Positions 21,470-33,814 of a DNA stretch of 33,819 nucleotides are shown here, in pieces; position 1 is the stretch's first letter; each line of letters opens with the position of its first letter. The translations under genes were made by a program, and so were the position numbers. The notes beneath the pieces were generated by a model, which was given only the letters and a program-made list of their open reading frames with translations, was not told the DNA's origin and did not search any database. The stretch is from Nitrospirae bacterium RIFCSPHIGHO2_01_FULL_66_17 (lineage in GTDB: Bacteria; Nitrospirota; Nitrospiria; 2-01-FULL-66-17). The stretch lies in the NCBI GenBank assembly GCA_001803875.1, contig MHEO01000039.1, forward strand, positions 1 to 33,819. The letters are read 5' to 3'.

Positions 21470-21627
21470 CTAGGAACCTGTCCATGAATGGTCATCTGCG
21501 GCGTTGCCGCTGCGCATCCGCTCCTCACGTACCCACCGCGTACGCTCCGGTGCGGTGCTCACGGCGCCTGGCATCTGACGCATTCCTGAACAGACTCCAA
21601 CGATCGAATACTCGGACAGGTTCCTAG
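21470..21627. mobile_element. MITE-like palindromic element, copy 1
   Basis: The element has perfect 14-base terminal inverted repeats, CTAGGAACCTGTCC and GGACAGGTTCCTAG, and is an imperfect palindrome along its length. The centre is a CGTAC...GTACG hairpin. It carries no credible gene. A second, inverted copy of the same length class (27903-28060) agrees over most positions by eye, including the blocks CCTGTCCATGAATGG, GCTGCGCATCCG, TCCTCACGTAC and GCATTCCTGAACAG. Both ends read CTAG, fitting a TA target duplication as made by IS630/Tc1-mariner transposases, so a non-autonomous element mobilised in trans is likely. Its right-hand TA forms the TAG stop of the anti-sigma gene. No transposase is in the window. 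Confidence 0.8.
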
Positions 21628-21965: not shown

Positions 21966-22577
21966 TCAGGCCACGGCGTGCTCGGCGTGATGGAGGCGGG
22001 TCTGGCGGGAGGCACCAGCCCAGTAGTCCTTGAGCAATTTCTTCAGAAGATTGCGGCCGCGAGACAACCGCGACATGACCGTGCCGAGCGGACAGCTCAT
22101 GATCTCCGCGATCTCTTTGTAGTCAAATCCTTCGACGTCCTTGAGCAGCACGGCGAGGCGCAGTTTTTCCGGCAGCGCATCCATCGCGCGCTGGAAATCC
22201 TGGCGGAAGACCCCCTTCTCGTGCCGGCCACTCGCCGCCACCAACACATCCTTGGGCGACTCGTACGGATCATCTTCCACCACCTCGAGCTCGGTCAGCG
22301 ACACCTCGCGCGCACGCTGGTGATACCGATTGATGAACAGGTTCTTGGTGATGGTGAACAGCCAGGCTTTGTAATTGGTGATCTGCTCGTACCGGTGGTA
22401 AAACCGGTAGGCTCGCAGGTACGCGTCCTGAACCAAATCGTGCGCATCGTCGCTGTTGCCGGTCAACACGAGGGAAAAACCGTACAGCGAGTCAAGGTAC
22501 TTCAGCGTGATCTCTTCAAACTCGGCTTTTCTGGCTTCTTCCGGTCTCACCAACGTCAGCAGGGCACCGCTTTCCAT
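21966..22577 (-). CDS. ECF-family RNA polymerase sigma factor
   Basis: The ~203-residue protein has sigma region 2 (EITLKYLDSLYGFSLVLTGNSDDAHDLVQDAYLRAYRFYHRYEQITNYKAWLFTITKNLFINRYHQ). A linker follows, then region 4 (MDALPEKLRLAVLLKDVEGFDYKEIAEIMSCPLGTVMSRLSRGRNLLKKLL), a helix-turn-helix for -35 recognition. Domains sigma-1 and sigma-3 are missing, as in extracytoplasmic-function sigmas. The ATG at 22577 has GGAG seven bases upstream; ATG 22589 and the longer track start are alternatives. The adjacent ZAS anti-sigma gene implies a stimulus-responsive pair, possibly autoregulated. The signal and regulon are not deducible from the sequence. Confidence 0.92.
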   Translation of the reverse strand: MESGALLTLVRPEEARKAEFEEITLKYLDSLYGFSLVLTGNSDDAHDLVQDAYLRAYRFYHRYEQITNYKAWLFTITKNLFINRYHQRAREVSLTELEVVEDDPYESPKDVLVAASGRHEKGVFRQDFQRAMDALPEKLRLAVLLKDVEGFDYKEIAEIMSCPLGTVMSRLSRGRNLLKKLLKDYWAGASRQTRLHHAEHAVA

Positions 22578-22885
22578 TGTTTGCTCCATCCGAGGTTGCT
22601 TTCCGGTCCGACCCAAACCACGGGCTGGGAAGTGCACGTACGGTGCCAATAGGTTCCGGTGGGAATTTACCGCGGGAACACGGGGATGGATCTAACGCAG
22701 GGGGAAAAAGTGAGACTCAACTTCCCTTATTCAGACCAAATCTTCATCACTTGAGACGGCCGCGACTGACCGTTATTGATGGAATTGCCCCCTTTCCCTC
22801 TTGAGCGACGAAAGAGTGGCTTGTGGCATTTCTTTCTCGCCAATGGCACCAACGCTATTGAAACTTAAGAAGAAACTTCGCTTGT
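22578..22885. other. Intergenic region between the ECF sigma gene and nrdJ
   Basis: No gene is seen. It should hold the ECF sigma promoter; a GGGAAGTTGAGTC segment (minus strand, near 22715-22730) faintly recalls an ECF -35, but no matching -10 is evident. Base composition is more AT-rich than the surroundings. Confidence 0.5.
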
Positions 22886-27902: not shown

Positions 27903-28060
27903 TAGGAACCGGTCTGAACATTCGGCAGTTGGAGCCTGTTCAGGAATGCGCCAGATGCAAGGCGCCGGCGAGCACCCGGACCGGAGCGTACTGTTCCGTA
28001 CGTGAGGACCGGATGCGCAGCCGGCAACGCAGCAGATGGCCATTCATGGACAGGCTTCTA
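27903..28060. mobile_element. MITE-like palindromic element, copy 2 (inverted relative to copy 1)
   Basis: This is the second copy of the element at 21470-21627, in opposite orientation and of nearly equal length. Its ends are imperfect (GGAACCGGTC against GAAGCCTGTC) but both are bounded by TA. The centre is a CGTAC / GTACG hairpin whose loop sequence differs from copy 1 while the stem is kept. Its TA at 28059-28060 forms the TAG stop codon of gspK. On its other side lies the promoter region of the small secreted protein. No coding potential is evident. Confidence 0.78.
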
Positions 28061-29035
28061 ATCGGCCAGCCGCCAGTAGCGTAAGGTGGGCTCCCCGCGG
28101 GAGCGGTCCACGACCGCCAGAACGCCCTTTTTCACGCCGTTGGCCTCGCCTTCCGCGTAGACCGAGAACCACGAGCTGGCCACGGTAATTCGCGGCAGCA
28201 GTTGGCTGACCACGGCCGAGGTCATGCCGGGGACCTTGATCAGATCGCCCTTGGCGGCGAACGGCCGGGCATCGACGATCGTCTCCACCTGCTTGTCGTC
28301 GAGCGGGAACGCGACAGCGCCATCCTGGCCAGGCACCGGCAGTGTCTGCAGCACCACCGGGTCGGCGGTGTTGACGTTGATACTCTCGTCGGATGTGTAG
28401 ACCGTCAAGTACGGGCTGATCGTGCGGTACACCTCGTCGGAGATGCCTTTGACGAGGTGCAACTCGGCCAGGGTGTCCATCCGGCCGTTGCGGCAGCGGT
28501 ACGGCCGATCCAGGCGCTCGTAGTACGCCGACTCCGCGCCGGAGGGCTCCTCGATCTCGTCCCGATCCAGCCAATCCACGATCGCGTCGACCGGCGCGGG
28601 GTCGAGCCCCTTGAGCCGGAACAGGCGTTTGAGCTGCTCGATCTGAAGCGGAACCGAGGGTTTCGTCCCGCTCGGGGTCACCAGCATGTTGACGTTGATC
28701 TTCCCCCCCTCGTCCTGGATCCACGCCGCGACCGTCCCGTCCCCCAGGGGGTAGGGCGGGAGCGGCGTCGCCCAGAGTTCGGTCAAGTCGTCGCGGCCGC
28801 CGTGCCGGACCAGATCGTCCTTCAGGAGCGCCTGCGCGGCGGCGATGCCCGACGTCGCGAGGTGAAACGCCTTCATCCCGTCCCGGAAGTTGCCCGCGGC
28901 CTTCACCATCGTCCGGGTGGATCGGTCGAATTCGAGCACCGCCGTGACGAGCAGCACGAGGACGAGCAACGTGAGCACGAGGGCCATCCCGCGTTCGCCC
29001 GGCCGAGCGGCCCGCCGGTCAGGACGGCTTGTCAT
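28058..29035 (-). CDS. gspK: Type II secretion minor pseudopilin GspK
   Basis: GspK caps the tip of the T2SS pseudopilus together with GspI and GspJ. The 325-residue protein has a prepilin signal (ARPGERGMALVLTLLVLVLLVTAVLEF) cleaved after Gly16. Position +5 is hydrophobic rather than Glu, the expected GspK exception. IQDEGGKINVNML, DAIVDWLDRDEIEEPSGAES and SINVNTADPVVLQTL are GspK signatures around the helical insertion domain. The start overlaps the end of gspM by 17 bases. The stop codon TAG is supplied by palindromic element copy 2, and this is the last gene of the operon as transcribed. Confidence 0.9.
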   Translation of the reverse strand: MTSRPDRRAARPGERGMALVLTLLVLVLLVTAVLEFDRSTRTMVKAAGNFRDGMKAFHLATSGIAAAQALLKDDLVRHGGRDDLTELWATPLPPYPLGDGTVAAWIQDEGGKINVNMLVTPSGTKPSVPLQIEQLKRLFRLKGLDPAPVDAIVDWLDRDEIEEPSGAESAYYERLDRPYRCRNGRMDTLAELHLVKGISDEVYRTISPYLTVYTSDESINVNTADPVVLQTLPVPGQDGAVAFPLDDKQVETIVDARPFAAKGDLIKVPGMTSAVVSQLLPRITVASSWFSVYAEGEANGVKKGVLAVVDRSRGEPTLRYWRLAD

Positions 29036-29567: not shown

Positions 29568-31093
29568 CACACACCTTCTCTCAGCGTGATGGTCATCAGG
29601 AACCGGACCTTGGACTGGTCGGCGGTCGTCTTGGCGTCACTCACCACGATACGGCCGACAAAGGGCGCCTTCGAGAGCGCGCCCTCGATGCGGTTCACCC
29701 AGTCGAACGACGCGGTCTCCGCCTCGATCCGGACCTTGTCCTGATCGATGGTCAGATCGGACACCGCGATGCCGCTGTCCTTGGGGATCGCGTCGGTCAG
29801 CTTCAACAGGATGTCGAGCGCGCCAACCTCGCCGCCGAGAAACGCCCGCTGTTTGGCGAGCGTGTCGATCGCAGCCTGGAGCTGATCGGGTTCGCTCACG
29901 ATCGTCGTCACTCCGGGGAGCGCGTCCTGAAAGGCCGCGCGCACCCGGTCCTGCACCTCGCGGTACCGGCGCTCCTTCCCGGCGGCTCGCACCCCCAGGT
30001 CGGCGACGCCCGCCGCGAGCACGAGCGCCGCCATGACGCCCGCGATCATCGCGCGCTTGCGCACCCCCGCCCGCTCCCGACCGTACGCGAACTCCCCCCG
30101 GCGGAAGTCGATGCGGCCGCGGTCGCGGGCCAGCCCCGCGAGCGCCAGACCGGCCGCGAGGGCGACCGGCGCGAGCGGCCGCGGCGCACCGCCGATCGGC
30201 ACCGACGGCCACGCGACGAGCTCCAGCCCCAGCGCGTCGGCGAGGAACGCGCCGACCTCCGGAAGATCCGACCAGAGGCCGCTCAGCGCCATCGCCCCGA
30301 CGCGCCGGCCCGAGTCGACCGCGTCGGCGTGCAGGGTGCGCCGCAACTCGTCGACCGCGGTCCGGAGCGCGGGAACCAGGGCGTCCGCCGCGCGAGCGGC
30401 CGAGGCCCGGTCGGCGTCGTCTCTCGCGTGACGGTAGATGGTTGCCTCCCGGAGCGCCTCGGCTTCGATCCCCGACTCGGCCGCCGCGCGCCTCGCCGCC
30501 TCGCCGTCCCAAGGCACGCCCCGCATCGCCCGCAGGCGCCGGCCGTCGAGCAGCGCCACCGAGATCCACCGATCGTCCAGGTGGATCAGCGCCAGGTCGG
30601 GACGGAGCGGCAGCCAGACCTCGGCGGCATGCGCGAGGGCCTCGGCGTCCACGGTCACCACGCGGGGATCGAGCCCCGCGCGAGCCGCCTCCTCCAGCCG
30701 GGCCCGCAAAGTCGTTTTCGGAACGGCCGCCGCCAGGAGGCGCGAGCGCCCCTCCGCCTGAGACACGAGCGACGCCGCGACCACGACCTCGTCGAGCTCG
30801 AACGGCAACTGCCCCTCGAGCTCGGACGGGAGGACGGCGTCGAGCTTCTCCCGCTGGGTGAACGGCAGGGTGACCGCCCGCGCGGATACGGCGTGAACCG
30901 GCACGCCGAGCGCGACCGGTTGCGCCCCCGGCGCCGCTTCCCGCGCGAGCGCCCGCAGCGTCTCGACCGGGCCCTCGGCGCCCTCGGGCACCCGCCGCGT
31001 GACGGCGCGCTCGATCCGAACGCCCTTGAGCCCCCGATTCACCACCGCGAGCGTAAGCGCCCGCGCGCCGATATCGAATCCCGCCCCGCGCAT
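29567..31093 (-). CDS. gspL: Type II secretion system protein GspL (PilM/PilN-like)
   Basis: GspL links the secretion ATPase GspE to the membrane platform. The 508-residue protein has an actin-like cytoplasmic domain (FDIGARALTLAVVNRG to about residue 320, with LPFTQREKLDAVLPSELEGQLPFELDEVVV). One membrane segment follows (AMIAGVMAALVLAAGVADLGV, about 350-370), then a PilN-like periplasmic domain (LDILLKLTDAIPKDSGIAVSDLTIDQDKVRIEAET). One copy of a 30-bp repeated DNA motif falls in the middle of the coding sequence, in a different frame from the other copies. It lies between gspN and gspM. Confidence 0.85.
   Translation of the reverse strand: MRGAGFDIGARALTLAVVNRGLKGVRIERAVTRRVPEGAEGPVETLRALAREAAPGAQPVALGVPVHAVSARAVTLPFTQREKLDAVLPSELEGQLPFELDEVVVAASLVSQAEGRSRLLAAAVPKTTLRARLEEAARAGLDPRVVTVDAEALAHAAEVWLPLRPDLALIHLDDRWISVALLDGRRLRAMRGVPWDGEAARRAAAESGIEAEALREATIYRHARDDADRASAARAADALVPALRTAVDELRRTLHADAVDSGRRVGAMALSGLWSDLPEVGAFLADALGLELVAWPSVPIGGAPRPLAPVALAAGLALAGLARDRGRIDFRRGEFAYGRERAGVRKRAMIAGVMAALVLAAGVADLGVRAAGKERRYREVQDRVRAAFQDALPGVTTIVSEPDQLQAAIDTLAKQRAFLGGEVGALDILLKLTDAIPKDSGIAVSDLTIDQDKVRIEAETASFDWVNRIEGALSKAPFVGRIVVSDAKTTADQSKVRFLMTITLREGV
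30422..30451 (-). repeat. T2SS 30-bp repeat, copy A (inside gspL)
   Basis: The shared core is GCGTGACGGTAGAT, then a short variable stretch and GCCTCCCG (plus-strand reading). It differs from copy B at two of 30 positions. Here it is read as REATIYRHAR, a different frame from copies B and C. Confidence 0.75.
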
Positions 31094-32040: not shown

Positions 32041-32772
32041 TCACCGCGTCCCGGCGAGGGGCAGGGCCACCACCGTCCGGACGCGCTCGGCGGGCGCGCG
32101 GCCGACGCCCGCCAGCCCGACCGTCACCTCGACCGCTCTCGGCAGGCCCTGGCGCGGTTTCGCCTCCCACGCGTCCACCCAGTCGGCGCCTGCGAGGTAT
32201 CGGAGCTTGAACTCCGTTACGCCCTCGGCCATGTCGTCGGTCTGAACGGCCCACGGCGCGTCACTGAGGACGTTGGATCGTTCCTCCCGCACCAGCCGTC
32301 CGGTCGCGCCGTCGGGGTCGGCCTCGACCCGATACTCGATCTGCGACACGTCGGACTCGGGGCGGTCGGCCACGTACCGCCGGTGGGCGAACGTCGTCCA
32401 GACCAGGCGGTCCCGGCGCGTATCCGCCCCGGCGGCCGTGTCGCTCGATCCCTCGAACCGTCCACGCCCGCCGTTGTCGGCAAACCAGTACGCGGCCGAC
32501 AGCTCGTCCACCAGGCGCTCCGTGATGACCTGCACCTGGCGCATCCGCTCGCTGGCCTCCGCGGTGTCGCGCGTCACGTCCACGCTGCGCGCAAACGCGC
32601 CGTACACGAGGGTCATCACGATCGCTAACAGCCCGATCGCCACCACCACTTCGATCAGAGTAAATCCGCGCTGCGCCAAAGGCGCGGCATGAAAATCGCC
32701 CCTTCCTCTCGGATCGCGAAGCAAGCCGCCGCGCGGCTCTAGCGTGACGGTAGATAGTTGCCTCCCGCTCAC
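32041..32772 (-). CDS. gspJ: Type II secretion minor pseudopilin GspJ
   Basis: GspJ is a tip pseudopilin. The prepilin signal is QRGFTLIEVVVAIGLLAIV, with Gly at -1, Phe at +1 and Glu at +5. The downstream ERMRQVQVITERLVDELSAAYW and RDRLVWTTFAHRRY, leading into GVTEFKLRYL, are typical of GspJ. The GTG start overlaps the gspI stop as GTGA and gives an unusually long ~35-residue leader; an internal TTG just before AQRGF would give a normal short leader. The leader DNA is nearly identical to that of gspI (see the repeat entries), so the true start is open. Confidence 0.85.
   Translation of the reverse strand: MSGRQLSTVTLEPRGGLLRDPRGRGDFHAAPLAQRGFTLIEVVVAIGLLAIVMTLVYGAFARSVDVTRDTAEASERMRQVQVITERLVDELSAAYWFADNGGRGRFEGSSDTAAGADTRRDRLVWTTFAHRRYVADRPESDVSQIEYRVEADPDGATGRLVREERSNVLSDAPWAVQTDDMAEGVTEFKLRYLAGADWVDAWEAKPRQGLPRAVEVTVGLAGVGRAPAERVRTVVALPLAGTR
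32656..32727 (-). repeat. Pseudopilin leader repeat (gspJ copy)
   Basis: The block contains GGCTTGCTTCGCGATCCG, GGGGCGATTTTCAT, a GCGCC/GGCGC hairpin and GCGGATTTAC. It recurs before the gspI signal sequence (33135-33206), and its last part recurs before gspH. Confidence 0.75.
32738..32767 (-). repeat. T2SS 30-bp repeat, copy B (start of gspJ)
   Basis: This copy differs from copy A at two positions and from copy C at two positions. It is read here as GRQLSTVTLE in the doubtful N-terminus of GspJ, just upstream of the leader repeat. Confidence 0.75.
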
Positions 32773-33242: not shown

Positions 33243-33814
33243 CACGAGGCGGTCGTGTCTAGCGTGACGGTAGATCGTGGCCTCCCGTCGACGTAGCCCG
33301 CGACCACCGTCACCCGGCCGGTGATTGGGTTGATCGTGAGGGTGTAGCGCGACGGCCGCTTATTGATGCCGTTCAACCGATCGCCCTCCTCGAGGTGAAT
33401 CGCCGTCCGCGTGACGCCGCCCGACGGGAAGAACTGGGTGAACGCCGTGCCATCCGTCACCAGACCATGATGCGGGGTGGCCACGTCCTCGAAGCGGACC
33501 TCCGCGGGCAGCGCCCGTTTGGGCCCGACCGGCGGCCCCTCTTCGAGGACGCCGCCACGCGACACCAGCGTCGTCACCCAGAACTCGTCGGTGTCCAGAT
33601 CATAATACAGCCGCTGGATCGTGCGGGTCGCGATCGCCTCCTGAACGAGGGCGGCGGCCAGCCCCGCGAGGTCGCGCGACGCCGATCGCGCGTCGCCCCC
33701 GACGACACGCTGCAGGCGCGGCGCGACCAGCATGGCGACCAGGGCGAGGATGAACACCACGATCGTGATCTCGATCAGGGTAAATCCGCACTGCGCCAAC
33801 GGCGCAGACTGCAA
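33242..33814 (-). CDS. gspH: Type II secretion pseudopilin GspH (5' end at or beyond the window edge)
   Basis: GspH is a minor pseudopilin beneath the tip complex. About 190 residues are visible, starting at a TTG just inside the window; the true start may lie outside, because the leader matches the longer ones of gspI and gspJ. The signal is AQCGFTLIEITIVVFILALVAMLVAPRL (Glu +5), followed by RSASRDLAGLAAALVQEAIATRTIQRLYYDLDTDEFWV, typical of the GspH head. The C-terminus SGGVTRTAIHLEEGDRLNGINKRPSRYTLTINPITGRVTVVAGY also fits. It overlaps gspI (TGATG). Core genes gspC-G would be expected further upstream. Confidence 0.85.
   Translation of the reverse strand: MQSAPLAQCGFTLIEITIVVFILALVAMLVAPRLQRVVGGDARSASRDLAGLAAALVQEAIATRTIQRLYYDLDTDEFWVTTLVSRGGVLEEGPPVGPKRALPAEVRFEDVATPHHGLVTDGTAFTQFFPSGGVTRTAIHLEEGDRLNGINKRPSRYTLTINPITGRVTVVAGYVDGRPRSTVTLDTTAS
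33258..33287 (-). repeat. T2SS 30-bp repeat, copy C (end of gspH)
   Basis: This copy differs from copy B at two of 30 positions. It is read as GRPRSTVTLD at the very C-terminus of GspH, just before the gspI leader repeat. Confidence 0.75.

Follow-up and report, generated by a model that had tools for sequence, protein, structure and literature searches.

A palindromic miniature element, probably ERIC-like and inserted in trans, that takes the place of stop codons in a Nitrospirae bacterium

The DNA under study, a stretch of 33,819 nucleotides hereafter called the window, belongs to contig MHEO01000039.1 of Nitrospirae bacterium RIFCSPHIGHO2_01_FULL_66_17, whose genome assembly comprises 1.41 Mb and is 65% complete. 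Two minus-strand genes of the window, one coding for a zf-HC2 anti-sigma factor and the other for a type II secretion system protein K, end within the outermost bases of two copies of the same palindromic element, and in both cases it is the element that provides the TAG stop codon. The features are listed in Table 1.

Table 1. Elements and associated features in the window (positions are those of the window)
Feature	Position	Strand	Evidence
Element copy 1, including TA at both ends; left end of family consensus at 21471	21471..21626	+	Sequence, family consensus, R2 match
Left terminal inverted repeat plus target C, CTAGGAACCTGTCC	21470..21483	+	Repeat comparison, shuffles
Right terminal inverted repeat plus target G, GGACAGGTTCCTAG	21614..21627	+	Repeat comparison, shuffles
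Copy 1, inner hairpin with covariation; its left end pairs with the inner right repeat	21471..21598	+	Covariation, R2 match
Apical motif CACGTAC-loop-GTACGC, common to several phyla	21526..21545	+	Pattern scans
Anti-sigma gene TAG stop, from right end of element	21624..21626	-	ORF reading
Anti-sigma factor gene (zf-HC2), 86 aa	21624..21884	-	Pfam; adjoins ECF sigma factor gene (21966-22649)
Element copy 2, including TA at both ends	27903..28060	-	Sequence, consensus, R2 match
Apical motif of copy 2	27986..28004	-	Core-pattern scan
Protein K gene TAG stop, from left end of copy 2	28058..28060	-	Element-free CTAG orthologue in sister species
Type II secretion system protein K gene	28058..29035	-	Pfam T2SSK_1st

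The terminal inverted repeats of copy 1 match at 14 of 14 positions, as the initial annotation had described them, and a perfect repeat of this length at this spacing is unique in the window and does not occur in 20 shuffled sequences. The 158-bp block which that annotation had delimited is real, but its outermost C and G are target DNA, leaving an element of 156 bp including both TAs; its reading of the anti-sigma stop as the terminal TA of the element plus the first G is borne out by the open reading frame. Relative to its gene, copy 1 lies in the minority orientation, in which the right end supplies the stop, and the counterpart of this gene in the sister species has a different tail and offers no clean element-free site. 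The inner hairpin measures 126–130 nt, with fold z-scores of −2.8 and −4.7 on the two strands, and an Rfam search of the element gave no match. Inspection of the sequence at either end of copy 1 revealed no T-run, and an intrinsic terminator of the ordinary type is ruled out for the element since the hairpin has no U-tract. A covariance model built from the cross-phylum elements described below, leaving out both the present family and ERIC (R2), finds the inner hairpin of copy 1 with E=8e-26 and copy 2 over positions 27931–28060 with E=3e-30, the E-values of such models being rough. For copy 2 the unoccupied site is available: in the sister species the gene ends in GCC GAC TAG without the element, a CTAG stop with a single TA, and here in GCC GAT TAG continued by the element.

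The two copies belong to a numerous family. The core pattern CACGTAC-N3-9-GTACGC occurs at least 89 times in the host genome, itself 65% complete; the sister species has 76 occurrences and a related genus 133, and the reversed control pattern occurs in none of the three. Across a sample of the phylum the pattern is present in 75 of 296 genomes, those with high copy numbers being scattered and single hits being about as frequent as for the control; the best-scoring named element that we found lies in a Nitrospirae metagenome assembly (L096). Copies at unrelated loci are 80–95% identical, and the family consensus reads TA-GGAGCCTGTCCATGAA, a variable stem, the apical motif CTCACGTAC-N4-8-GTACGCTCCG, the variable stem again, TTCCTGAACAGGCTCC and, to the right, an extension by about 26 bp that ends in GGACAGGCTCC-TA. 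For the left end, either of the two right repeats, inner or outer, is a possible pairing partner. Compensatory changes occur within the family in 13 of the 38 base pairs of the inner hairpin. In some copies the left arm contains a 31-bp insert or the apical loop contains other palindromes; palindromes of the TGTAGGGGCGGG and CCTCCAGGAGCCTCC types sit precisely in this loop at four loci. Among terminal repeats lacking the core we have seen no autonomous copy, most of them being degenerate copies or copies with inserts. A second subfamily shares the apical motif and has ends of the form TAGCAGGCTGCTGAAAAAG (locus L287, on contig C29 of genome G001, and three contigs of the host genome), and in the sister species it occupies the same stop codon as the main family does here.

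We have examined the position of the element relative to coding sequences using our own gene calls, made with a codon-usage model derived from long open reading frames, and reading each gene that runs into a copy. The genomic sequence read for this work comprised the surroundings of the copies, orthologous regions and terminal repeats left unexplained. Among the 76 copies in which both arms are present, 51 gene ends take their stop codon exactly from an end of the element, 41 from the left and 10 from the right. At the left end the stop corresponds to the first three bases of the element in 41 of 61 incoming genes; 15 of the others stop 1–14 nt upstream and one further upstream, two stop at position +14, which is the first stop met in another reading frame, and two further inside. 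At the right end of full copies the stop is exact in 10 of 18 cases. This placement is strongly non-random, since insertions falling at random in genes would be shared equally among the three frames, and the use of both ends agrees with the proposal in the initial annotation that a stop is restored in either orientation. Of 50 full copies, 29 are bounded by TA on both sides, which fits the non-autonomous, TA-ended element that it had envisaged; the remaining 21 lack TA at one or both ends, the kind of copy it had named as evidence against its reading, and this we read as decay. The 29 TA-bounded copies are flanked as C-TA-G in 14 cases and as N-TA-G in 23, which implies that the site before insertion was in most cases a TAG stop, frequently one within CTAG, a sequence preferred over ordinary TA-containing stops (p=1e-4). 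Also, there is an orientation bias among full copies (27 left against 10 right, p=0.008), which a symmetric CTAG target does not predict and which suggests either that the transcript is under selection or that the insertion step is asymmetric. Of the left-anchored copies 22 of 39, and of the right-anchored ones 4 of 8, have a degraded gene-distal end; such decay would be expected where selection acts solely on the end that provides the stop.

Orthologous gene ends, compared in two relatives, give a consistent picture. Eight could be fully aligned, that of copy 2 and seven others, and all of them stop at the codon that is replaced by the element, which in the seven others is TAA, TGA or TAG. 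At L287 that stop is occupied in the orthologue by a different subfamily of the same structure, and at L297 the orthologue has its own stop with an element a few bases after. The existence of orthologues with the same stop and no element, together with the placement on stop codons, thus indicates insertion targeted to TA or CTAG within stop codons, with regeneration of the stop. The TA/CTAG target, the duplication of TA, the protein-neutral replacement of the stop, the decay of the unused end and the conservation of the hairpin are supported directly, and the movement by an enzyme acting in trans is inferred. We consider it highly probable that this is a non-autonomous, ERIC-like miniature element, inserted in trans at TA or CTAG and replacing stop codons.

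According to the mechanism that we propose, a trans-acting enzyme would insert the element at TA, for the most part in a CTAG context. Where a TAG or TAA stop is hit, the protein would stay unchanged, because both ends of the element read TAG outward, and the original stop would give way to the TAG of the element itself, so that copies at stops would be tolerated. Selection would then keep the end that provides the stop and the other would be free to decay, and the long hairpin would become the start of the 3′UTR, and there it would probably influence how the mRNA is processed or how stable it is, in analogy to ERIC in Yersinia, for which an effect on transcripts as a 3′UTR hairpin has been reported (PMC2229807, PMC10969869). 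The element would thereby offer a clean and testable example of mobile DNA that stays harmless by substituting its own stop codon for the one it hits.

A rather unlikely alternative, which nonetheless survives better than the others, is that insertion occurs at random TA sites and that the copies at stop codons are mere survivors of selection. Indeed, if replacing a stop is harmless, survivors would concentrate there, and CTAG is rare in coding sequence, accounting for one of 52 background sites. However, non-coding CTAG sites outnumber those at stops by 37 to 14 and yet the copies are mostly at stops (49 of 76, against 14 of the 52 background sites, p=3e-5), a comparison in which the background sample lies around the copies and does not include filled sites. 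The non-random niche at gene ends postulated by the initial annotation is upheld.

In respect to the mobilising enzyme, the same annotation had invoked an IS630-type transposase with matching termini. The corresponding explanation, that the element derives from an IS630 by deletion and has kept ends that an IS630 transposase recognises, as has been proposed for RUP, agrees with the TA duplication, with the CTAG preference and with the presence of IS630-type (DDE_3) genes, one found in the host genome and two in the related genus. We regard it as improbable: the gene of the host is flanked by TGCATAAGTAATGTCCTAT and not by GGAGCCTGTCC, the sister species (88% complete) has copies of the element and no DDE_3 gene, and of the two loci of the related genus one shows nothing resembling the element within the stretch fetched, the other lying near an ordinary hairpin copy with no matching inverted repeat. 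Besides, a conserved inner hairpin is not a feature of IS630. An IS630 partner is accordingly not supported by the genomes searched, of which that of the host is 65% complete: no DDE_3 gene in them has matching ends. The transposase gene of the host is split in two frames and is located at a contig end.

Still less probable is that the hairpin is moved as single-stranded DNA by a Y1 transposase, either REP-associated or of the IS200/IS605 type. Y1_Tnp genes are found in all three close genomes and the single-strand structure is conserved, as this explanation would have it, but Y1 elements do not typically duplicate TA or have terminal inverted repeats, and at the ten Y1 loci fetched none of the transposase genes is bracketed by the ends of the element. 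Several Y1 genes in one contig of the related genus are flanked instead by AAGTAGCCTGTC repeats, which are probably the REP-like sites of these genes. The notion that the hairpin is stationary, a 3′UTR regulatory structure that arose at gene ends and is repeated by virtue of shared function, would account for the fact that in several phyla the hairpins sit directly at stop codons, for the strong covariation and for the orientation bias, and is nevertheless disfavoured as most improbable, since 80–95% identity at unrelated loci, TA flanks and element-free orthologues with the same stop require movement.

Of the known systems, the element is closest to ERIC (also IRU or RU-1), an imperfect palindrome of about 127 bp which is transcribed into a long hairpin, has no known transposase and, like the element, is TA-ended with duplication of TA (PMC2229807, PMC2759123). 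The two share the apical TCACnTAC-loop-GTAnGCTCC and the flanking GCGT and CGCCTT arm motifs. In the Escherichia coli ERIC the centre, GTCACTTAC-TTAT-GTAAGCTCC, is in the same frame as the apical motif, with CGTAC/GTACG changed to the compensated CTTAC/GTAAG, and in nucleotide comparison with the ERIC consensus (PMC2759123) the models align the arms and the apex while the ends differ. A covariance model of the present family alone (R1) ranks the ERIC of the E. coli ybhI-ybhJ region first, although weakly (11.3 bits, E=0.02), and R2 matches it at full length (27.9 bits, E=2.2e-6, the next best at 8.0 bits). Run with speed filters on 20 enterobacterial loci, R2 gave four matches only, its sensitivity to young ERICs being limited. 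Unlike ERIC, the element has another terminal repeat (GGAGCCTGTCC), an additional right extension of about 26 bp, a non-enterobacterial host and a mostly exact placement on stop codons; among ERICs sampled from enterobacterial species genomes, about 5 of 27 have an end 1–2 nt from a gene stop. With its long palindrome, its TA ends and TA duplication and the shared apex and arm motifs, the element is best read as a new, stop-codon-specialised family of the ERIC superfamily of non-autonomous elements, mobilised in trans.

Other small repeats resemble it in part. RUP of Streptococcus pneumoniae is likewise small, TA-targeting and without coding capacity, but its ends match those of IS630-Spn1 (PMC2229807), whereas the element has no matching IS630 in the genomes searched. 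YPAL (RU-2) of Yersinia is a palindromic repeat co-transcribed with upstream genes, which differs in having no TA ends and in making duplications of 3–26 bp (PMC2229807). The Rickettsia palindromic elements are also small palindromic repeats, published ones being often inserted in frame inside genes (PMC10969869), and the apical motif is present in at least four Rickettsia contigs. REPs and REPINs, associated with RAYT, are similar as high-copy palindromes in intergenic DNA; REPs, however, have 20–40 bp and GTAG or CGTC tags (PMC3733652). The 156-bp length with TA ends and the lack of such ends at the Y1 loci fetched speak against membership of REP/RAYT. A search of open papers by motif sequence returned nothing relevant among the matches listed.

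The apical structure extends well beyond this phylum. A scan of 84,980 species genomes with CTCACGTAC-N4-8-GTACGCTCCG gave at least 118 stretches, those among the matches listed including Mesorhizobium, Agrobacterium, Rickettsia, Klebsiella, Listeria, Paenibacillus, Clostridia, Nitrospirae, Myxococcales, Bacteroidales, Desulfobacterales and others; the pattern was chosen by us, so that the motif is conserved by construction, which does not hold for the flanks. The arms of one copy pair at a mean of −28.4 kcal/mol, against −17.2 kcal/mol when arms are swapped between copies. In an alignment of 57 cross-phylum elements, pairing holds for 88% of the cells, and both partners vary in 34 of the 38 pairs. 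Its covariation score of 0.699 compares with 0.165 after shuffling and about 0.09 after sliding, values that lean towards structure because the alignment was fitted to it. For 21 of 25 Mesorhizobium copies and 27 of 87 others, a gene on the same strand stops 42–70 nt ahead of the motif, the null rates being 3.6% and 2.3%, respectively. It is possible, if somewhat doubtful, that mobile hairpins form a superfamily across many phyla in which ERIC is a single branch, that all of them are recognised by a widespread machinery via one conserved apical structure, with insertion or retention coupled to stop codons, and that they so make up a general class of mobile 3′UTRs. The long-known ERIC repeat becomes tied to a covarying structure found across phyla, and a structure common to many genomes provides a route to the mobilising enzyme by co-occurrence.

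In Rouxiella aceris the motif occurs five times in tandem with an exact spacing of 122 bp. In rhizobial copies, as well as in four enterobacterial ones, the outermost 7–12 bp vary between copies and match between the two ends of a single copy, as if the terminal repeat evolved by compensation or derived from the insertion site. Finally, the type II secretion cluster of the window contains other repeats. A 36-nt sequence with core TCTAGCGTGACGG and GCCTCCCG is found three times (30416–30451, 32732–32767 and 33252–33287), and a 31-nt sequence resembling it (CGGGAAGCAGCATTCGTCCGTCACGCTAGA on the other strand) is what is inserted in the left arm of many copies of the element: the two are possibly another small mobile repeat. 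Between positions 32619 and 33814, the starts of three type II secretion pseudopilin-like genes share a repeated stretch of the form GATTTCGA(T/G)CAGGGTAAATCCGC.
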